DNA of 52,782 nt from Treponema sp. (GTDB lineage: Bacteria > Spirochaetota > Spirochaetia > Treponematales > Breznakiellaceae), in the NCBI GenBank assembly GCA_031256445.1, contig JAIRQN010000055.1:1-52782 (forward strand), read 5' to 3'. The translations under genes were made by a program, and so were the position numbers. This document shows, in pieces, positions 25,841 through 27,409 of the stretch (positions are counted from its first letter, which is position 1; the number at the start of each line of letters is the position of its first letter). The notes beneath the pieces were generated by a model. The model did no database searches. It worked only from the letters and a program-made list of their open reading frames with translations, and was not told the DNA's origin.

Positions 25841-26686
25841 CTATATCGCCTCGACTACGCACTCGCGCAGTTCTTTCGCGTGACGGCGTATCTTTTTCAG
25901 CGCTCTCATTTCAATCTGACGCACTGTTTCGGGGGAAATGTTAAACTTATTGCCGATTTCCCTTAACGTATAACGTTCACAGCCGTTCAGCTGATAACGG
26001 TAGCTTAAAATCCTCTTTTCTTTTTCTTTCAGATTGTCAAGAACAACCATTGTACTGTCCTGCGAATACTGTTTCATAAAATTTATTTCGGGACTGTAGG
26101 TATAATCTTCATATACGTCAATTTCGCCCGTTGTCTCATCATAATTATTGGACGCAAATGAAAGCGAACCTACAGACATATTGACGATATAATCGATATC
26201 CTTGACAGGAATGCCAAGTTCCCTCGCGATGTCGGCGTTTTGCGGCTGATGCATAAGCTGCTGGCAAAGAACATGATATGTGCGCTGAATCTTGTTAAGG
26301 ATTTCTTCCTTGCGCAGGGGAAGGCGCACCAGCCTGCGTTTATTGGAAATTGAACGGCTTATATACTGCTTAATCCACCAGCTCGCGTATGTGCAAAAAC
26401 GGACATTCTTGCGGTAATCAAATTTTTCCGCGGCGTGAATTAAGCCAAGATTCCCTTCCTGAATAATATCCAGAATGGAAATATCAGGCTTGCTGTACAT
26501 TCCAGCGATTTTAACAACCAGCCTTAAATTGGAATTTATCAGTTTATGAAGAGCTTGCGTGCTCCCTTTCTTTATCTGTCTGGACAGTTCCAATTCATCA
26601 TCAAATGATAAAAGAGGGAAGCCTTTAATCTGCCTGAAATATGATTCAAGCATATTCTCGTTATCGTGTTTTGATTTTTTCTGCAT
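25841..26686 (-). CDS. Sigma-70 family RNA polymerase sigma factor (RpoD/RpoS type)
   Basis: This 281-residue sigma factor lacks region 1.1. Region 1.2 is SYFRQIKGFPLLSFDDELELSRQIKKG-like. Region 2 includes NLRLVVKIAGMY, the core-binding DIIQEGNLGLIHAAEKFD, and the -10 recognition and melting part with FCTYASWWIKQYISRSI. Region 4 ends in the HTH LREIGNKFNISPETVRQIEMRALKKIR. The size and layout fit group 2 factors such as RpoS, as opposed to a housekeeping RpoD. The ATG at 26686 (MQKKSKH) is chosen because GGAGG lies 5 nt upstream. Longer frames start within or just after a sigma-54 promoter at 26754-26770. That promoter suggests control by RpoN and an enhancer-binding protein, as for Borrelia rpoS. 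Confidence 0.88.
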   Translation of the reverse strand: MQKKSKHDNENMLESYFRQIKGFPLLSFDDELELSRQIKKGSTQALHKLINSNLRLVVKIAGMYSKPDISILDIIQEGNLGLIHAAEKFDYRKNVRFCTYASWWIKQYISRSISNKRRLVRLPLRKEEILNKIQRTYHVLCQQLMHQPQNADIARELGIPVKDIDYIVNMSVGSLSFASNNYDETTGEIDVYEDYTYSPEINFMKQYSQDSTMVVLDNLKEKEKRILSYRYQLNGCERYTLREIGNKFNISPETVRQIEMRALKKIRRHAKELRECVVEAI

Positions 26687-26753
26687 AATAACCTCCGTGC
26701 CTACACTGTTCATTCCAATACTTTCATATATGAATAATAGGCACACCATATAT

Positions 26754-26770
26754 AGCAAATATCGTGCCAA
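26754..26770 (-). promoter_or_regulatory. Sigma-54 (-24/-12) promoter of the sigma factor gene
   Basis: The minus strand reads TTGGCACG-ATAT-TTGCT, a full match to the sigma-54 consensus TGGCACG-N4-TTGCW. The GG at -24 and GC at -12 are at the required spacing. Transcription would start near 26743, giving a 5' leader of about 57 nt before the ATG at 26686. A 14-bp inverted repeat 25 bp upstream (26794-26826) may be the activator site. Confidence 0.8.
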
Positions 26771-26793
26771 GTAATTAGCAATTTATTATAAAA

Positions 26794-26826
26794 TTCGTAA
26801 TTCCTTACTACATAAGGAGTTACGAA
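26794..26826. promoter_or_regulatory. 14-bp inverted repeat upstream of the sigma-54 promoter
   Basis: TTCGTAATTCCTTA (26794-26807) and TAAGGAGTTACGAA (26813-26826) are inverted copies with one mismatch around CTACA. The centre is about 65 bp upstream of the predicted start site, a place where a dimeric enhancer-binding protein could bind. On the minus strand TTTTATAAT follows the right arm, so a weak terminator is an alternative reading. Confidence 0.45.
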
Positions 26827-26954
26827 AGCGGTCCGCCGGAATAAAAACAATTAAAAATTAACACTGTATGATTTTTCATACAAACCCGGAAAAAAGAGTA
26901 TACAAAAGTAATCATAATGGTCTTTTAATACTTACTTTCAGTTTTTATTTTTGT

Positions 26955-26965: not shown

Positions 26966-27409
26966 ATGGAGTACGGCATTATCGCCCGGGAAAAAAAGGG
27001 TGAAATCTACTATTCTGTTAACTGGTCTCCTCTATCCAAAGCCGACAGATGGGAAATTAACGCAAAAGTTCCGTCGGTTGCCGGTATTTTTGAAATTTAC
27101 TGGATGGATGAAACCAAACACCTGAGAATGTTTTTTGTCGGACAGACTCATTACGGCGGGCTGCGAAGCGAACTGCGCCGCCTGACCGATCCGGAATTAA
27201 CCGAAAACGCGAAAACAAAAGCAATTCTGGAAGACAAAGAAATATGGTACAGGTATACTCCGTGCAATTCCGCCAAAATAATGGCTGATGTTGTCTGGTT
27301 CTTTATGAAAACCTATTTCCCGGAAAATCCGCCGACGGAACATTCAGGACGTTACGAAAAAATTTTTCTTTCCGAATCCGCGCCGGATAAACTGATTTGG
27401 GTACCCTGA
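26966..27409 (+). CDS. Unknown protein with GIY-YIG-like N-terminal pattern
   Basis: This is a 147-residue soluble protein. The ATG at 26966 (MEYGIIAR) is preferred over a TTG 15 nt upstream. Residues 40-46 (GIFEIYW) followed by FVGQT (57-61) and GGLRSELRRL echo the GIY...YVG strands and the Arg helix of GIY-YIG nucleases. The usual downstream catalytic Glu is not evident, and the fit is by eye only. The WYRYTPCNS and YFPENPP segments look conserved-like, but I cannot name a family. It is followed 8 bp later by the YciO/YrdC gene, suggesting co-transcription. It could be an inactive nuclease fold or an unrelated protein. Confidence 0.5.
   Translation: MEYGIIAREKKGEIYYSVNWSPLSKADRWEINAKVPSVAGIFEIYWMDETKHLRMFFVGQTHYGGLRSELRRLTDPELTENAKTKAILEDKEIWYRYTPCNSAKIMADVVWFFMKTYFPENPPTEHSGRYEKIFLSESAPDKLIWVP

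Follow-up and report, generated by a model that had tools for sequence, protein, structure and literature searches.

To our knowledge, work on RpoN-RpoS cascades is almost confined to Borrelia. In the Rrp2-RpoN-RpoS pathway of Borrelia burgdorferi (BB0763, BB0450 and BB0771), a sigma-54 -24/-12 promoter lies ahead of an RpoS-type gene, as it does at the locus described here. Borrelia Rrp2 neither binds nor requires the 238 bp upstream of rpoS (PMC1976401), and Borrelia rpoS also possesses a second promoter of the sigma-70 type (PMC11109971). One Borrelia study describes a broad grouping of its RpoS with homologs of various proteobacteria (PMC6719511). The EbpA-sigma-54 pathway of Leptospira likewise combines RpoN with activators in a spirochaete, as in the genome studied here, while Leptospira interrogans is without RpoS (PMC12655853), unlike this genome. 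The accessible part of a 2025 survey ties COG0568 to sigma-54 in general and does not name spirochaetes for COG0568 (PMC12316311). In the literature that we searched, which covered few subscription papers, we found no report that sigma-54 controls a sigma factor in any spirochaete beyond Borrelia, and no RpoN target in treponemes.

The window analysed here, a contig of 52,782 nucleotides from Treponema sp., encodes on its minus strand (25841..26686) a sigma-70-family sigma factor of 281 aa in which regions 1.2, 2, 3 and 4 are all present by Pfam/NCBIfam. Together with the trees described below, these matches identify it as the spirochaetal RpoS ortholog, hereafter sigma A. Judging from sequence comparisons, its gene is very likely driven by a sigma-54 (RpoN)-dependent promoter, on which an activator encoded on contig C28 would probably act via a dyad at about -130. 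The promoter element, TGGCACGATATTTGCT, lies at 26769-26754 in the minus-strand context ...ctaattacTTGGCACGatatTTGCTatata..., with the first T of TGGCACG at 26769 and the last T of TTGCT at 26754. It matches exactly the consensus that was tested (GG at -24 and GC at -12, with the spacing TGGCAC-N5-TTGCW). The original prediction had placed a near-perfect sigma-54 promoter about 70 bp before the sigma factor start, and it is confirmed at 67 bp before the ATG (26686-26684), the previously given limit of 26770 merely including an extra 5′ T. Judged from the position of the element, transcription would start near 26743, 12 nt after the GC of the -12 box (26756-26755). The predicted leader is 57 nt long and has a ribosome-binding site, GGAGG (26692..26696, minus strand), ahead of the ATG; an alternative TTG start in the program's list of open reading frames, giving 309 aa, falls inside the promoter. 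A divergent gene without Pfam/NCBIfam match (26966..27409, plus strand) forms the genomic context on the other side. The same genome encodes a paralog with 62% identity to sigma A on contig C38 (G000:C38:3072-3899, L073), and no sigma-54 site was found in the 300 bp upstream of it; RpoN control is therefore not universal for this sigma family.

By score the proteobacterial RpoS model TIGR02394 was the top NCBIfam model for sigma A, with 217.1 bits against a curated cut-off of 378.7, which was thus missed. Sigma factor trees of 76 and 30 rows placed sigma A and its orthologs, Borrelia-type RpoS and relatives from Treponemataceae (f3) in a single clade (99; 100/99), with E. coli RpoS outside it, so that sigma A is an ortholog of Borrelia RpoS. 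AU tests on the 30 rows rejected trees in which Borrelia RpoS groups with E. coli RpoS (p-AU 4e-5) or with sigma B, a second sigma factor described below (p-AU 0.0009). The branching order inside the clade was not resolved by either tree. Of the 39 families sampled from the class, 28 contain a clear ortholog of sigma A (E 1e-58 or better), as counted by hand, and several small-genome families among the 39 gave none. The labels Borrelia-type and T. pallidum-like, as used here for genomes, were assigned from gene content and from the arrangement of rpoS and activator.

Conservation of the -24/-12 element was scored as the best 12-position match in the 250 bp upstream of each gene, with dinucleotide shuffles as control. 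All 36 same-genus orthologs scored 11-12 (shuffles reaching 12: 0/3600). The order set supplied 15 orthologs from other families, of which 14 scored in the same range and one scored 10 (1/1500). All of a further 30 class loci, from 25 additional families tallied by hand, likewise scored 11-12 (0/3000). RpoD genes, E. coli rpoS and the sigma factor of the type on contig C103, used as controls, scored 8-9, and 16 non-orthologous sigma loci scored at most 10. The element is also found before most sigma A-type genes of Treponemataceae (f3). Two T. denticola-like sigma genes within the RpoS-ortholog clade (L204 in G041, L205 in G038) have no -24/-12 site, both scoring 8/12.

Two further elements are located upstream. 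The inverted repeat TTCGTAACTCCTTA-tgtag-TAAGGAATTACGAA (minus strand, 26794..26826), listed by the original prediction as centred near -65, is present as described, with 13 of 14 arm positions paired around a centre at 26810, about -67. Its core, TAANTNNTTA-N5-TAANNANTTA, is kept at -64/-66 across the class with the consensus TAA.T..TTA-N5-TAA..A.TTA. A dyad not listed previously, TGTATGAAAAATCATACA (minus strand, 26865..26882), is centred at about -130 and is a candidate enhancer; its class consensus, tGTATaaAAAAgtAtACA, lies at about -126. Profiles for both elements were trained on the genus of the window alone and then run on 32 loci from other families. The best match to the repeat fell at -61 to -70 in 27 of these (chance expectation 1.8), and that to the dyad at -120 to -136 in 25 (chance expectation 3.0). 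A separate symmetry scan peaked at -64/-66 and near -126 to -130. With the same profiles neither element was detected at four Borrelia-type loci.

The genome encodes the proteins that such a promoter would require. A search for rpoN, whose absence would speak against the proposed cascade, found the gene intact on contig C31, where it scores 366 bits with TIGR02395 (cut-off 277). Of 60 relatives, 57 also encode rpoN, and the three genomes without a match are 69-71% complete. Three true sigma-54 activators are encoded: an NtrX-like regulator on contig C57 (GAFTDA), a GAF-domain activator on contig C5 (GAFTNA), and an AtoC-like (Rrp2-like) regulator of 455 aa on contig C28 with receiver, AAA and Fis-type HTH domains, an intact GAFTGA motif and an adjacent histidine kinase. 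The last of these is 52% identical over 449 aa to the activator of a 0.9-Mb Borrelia-type genome, where it sits about 7 kb from rpoS, compared with 40% and 45% for the other two, and its kinase is 34% identical to the kinase neighbouring the Borrelia-type activator. The Rrp2-like activator that the original prediction had called for is thus present as an ortholog, and, to the extent that sequence allows, the suggested RpoN-to-sigma cascade is supported by rpoN, the Rrp2 ortholog, a target sigma factor in the Borrelia RpoS clade and a -24/-12 box across the class.

In the mechanism that we propose, RpoN holoenzyme would bind the -24/-12 element at 26769-26754 and, upon an inducing signal, a sigma-54 activator, most likely the C28 regulator, would activate the promoter, with the dyad at 26882-26865 as its probable site. 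A further protein on the inverted repeat at -67 may help or restrain activation, and the sigma factor would then transcribe its own regulon. Since enhancers usually lie 100-150 bp upstream (PMC3037356), the dyad appears to be the likelier enhancer of the two upstream parts. That Borrelia Rrp2 needs no upstream site (PMC1976401) and has nearly the same recognition helix as the C28 regulator lends no support to the latter as the protein reading the dyad.

A second sigma-70-family sigma factor, sigma B (291 aa, 32% identical to sigma A), is encoded on contig C80 (G000:C80:26049-26971; L015:1501-2423), and a sigma-54 -24/-12 site, TGGCACACTTCTTGCT, lies 32 bp ahead of its ATG. Scores of 11-12 were obtained for all 19 orthologs from relatives and all 14 from the class, 11/12 in T. 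denticola-like genomes and 12/12 in G046, a T. pallidum-like genome (around 1104.6-1105.5 kb); among further loci examined, one scored 9 and one 10. The genus-trained profile found the dyad at none of 33 sigma B loci, and that of the repeat matched at 7 of 33, as a weak AT-rich signal. A further candidate sigma-54 promoter, TTGGCATGCTGTTTGCT, is located 47 bp ahead of a lipoprotein-like ORF (G000:C47:5863-5879, L009).

The inverted repeat is not restricted to the sigma promoter. Within three mismatches it occurs at eight places in this genome, seven besides the sigma promoter, and at none in a reversed control, and as the palindrome TAATTCCTTA-N5-TAAGGAATTA it is scattered through the genus (L100-L106, L136-L164). 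Its sites, with gene names assigned by eye from translations, lie 3′ of many different tRNA genes, in the gap between dnaA and gyrB, and near fusA and pspA. Integrase-like genes are found near some of the tRNA-flank copies, and the repeat also forms the centre of small MITE-like elements bounded by AGTGTCCTGT. One genome (G004) contains 73 copies, some of them 106 bp apart. At the fusA and pspA loci dyad and repeat occur together, about 63 bp apart, without a -24/-12 site. The full module of dyad, repeat and TTGGCACAGTTTTTGCT precedes an ORF without family match on contig C13 (G000:C13:5145-5290; L004, L112, L315), and at another locus (L206, G026:C106:364-447) the gene that follows all three parts is lipoprotein-like and does not encode a sigma factor. 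Several identities were considered for the repeat and found no support. The consensus given for Fur/Per boxes and the BosR direct repeat (PMC3037356) differs when compared by eye; a tRNA terminator would fit the many copies adjoining tRNA genes, but these are without a T run; and an Xer/integrase core site would fit the 11-5-11 geometry and the integrase-like genes close to a few copies, but the repeat is also fixed in the sigma promoter.

A -24/-12 match could arise by chance, with the sigma gene being transcribed from an ordinary sigma-70 promoter. The pattern TGGCACGNNNNTTGCW has a single exact match in the 2.79-Mb genome, the sigma promoter itself, where composition predicts roughly 0.7, that is about one, and with up to one mismatch 15 sites compare with 9 for a reversed control. 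The lone exact match is therefore not decisive, and position and conservation must carry the argument. The element stands before nearly every ortholog at a similar distance, and shuffles almost never score as high, and it is on this conservation that chance origin is rejected. A sigma-70-type promoter has a precedent in Borrelia rpoS (PMC11109971), but sigma-70-like matches near the sigma gene are no commoner than in shuffles, and we consider this explanation hardly credible. As for the upstream elements, dyad and repeat might act on the divergent gene (26966-27409) or in some other process instead of on the sigma promoter. The copies of the repeat at places without sigma-54 sites (tRNA 3′ flanks, dnaA/gyrB, fusA, pspA and MITE-like repeats) are in line with another role, and the repeat would therefore appear to bind something of wider use. 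Both parts, however, hold a fixed distance to the -24 box across the class, and the three-part module also precedes the C13 gene and the G026 lipoprotein gene. With respect to the divergent gene, dyad and repeat are retained at loci whose examined flank gave no divergent homolog (L052, L053, L076-L078), and three loci (L048, L050, L051) have kept the divergent gene without the repeat. A function apart from the sigma promoter thus seems unlikely.

A related question is which of the two upstream elements would act as the enhancer. The original prediction regarded the inverted repeat as the possible activator site, in which case the dyad at -130 would belong to another regulator. The repeat is the longest symmetry in the region, is kept at -64 to -68 and is the most precisely placed element (27/32 class loci). 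On the other hand, it lies nearer than the usual 100-150 bp (PMC3037356), a position that the dyad occupies, and copies of the same repeat at tRNA 3′ flanks, dnaA/gyrB, fusA and repeated elements are without sigma-54 promoters. The suggestion thus holds in part: the location of the repeat is conserved, and its role as the activator site is possible though rather doubtful. The preferred reading has the dyad as the probable enhancer and the repeat as the site of a further protein.

Families throughout the spirochaete class have this switch ahead of their sigma A genes, and the RpoN-RpoS circuit of Lyme disease therefore looks like an old spirochaete trait and not a Borrelia invention. We think it reasonably probable that in the ancestor of the Spirochaetia RpoN switched on two sigma factors, sigma A through a three-part promoter that had an enhancer dyad at -126 as well as a palindrome at -65, and sigma B through a promoter lacking the dyad, and that Borrelia has a reduced form of this arrangement. 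If so, the syphilis-type treponeme would retain the sigma B arm only, and Borrelia would have lost the upstream elements together with sigma B, which would explain why Rrp2 activation there is enhancer-independent (PMC1976401). What is new is the breadth with which a predicted multi-part RpoN promoter is conserved before the RpoS ortholog, together with a second, apparently RpoN-linked sigma factor. Orthologs with the same switch throughout the class would give the pathway an ancestry, and the promoter, with its apparent enhancer, could serve as a reference. The pathway might also be studied in relatives that are free-living or inhabit the termite gut. The sigma promoters would furthermore supply a testable RpoN target in treponemes.

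Compared with the described systems, the locus shares with the Borrelia burgdorferi pathway an orthologous target sigma factor and an orthologous activator with its adjacent kinase. It differs in having two upstream parts, conserved and centred at about -67 and -130, that are absent at the four Borrelia-type loci checked, in the three sigma-54 activators of the genome compared with one in Borrelia burgdorferi, and in a further sigma gene that also carries a -24/-12 site. With proteobacterial RpoS (TIGR02394) sigma A has a group-2-like sigma-70 architecture in common, whereas the stretch tested for E. coli rpoS, unlike that of the sigma gene of the window, contains no -24/-12 site (8/12).
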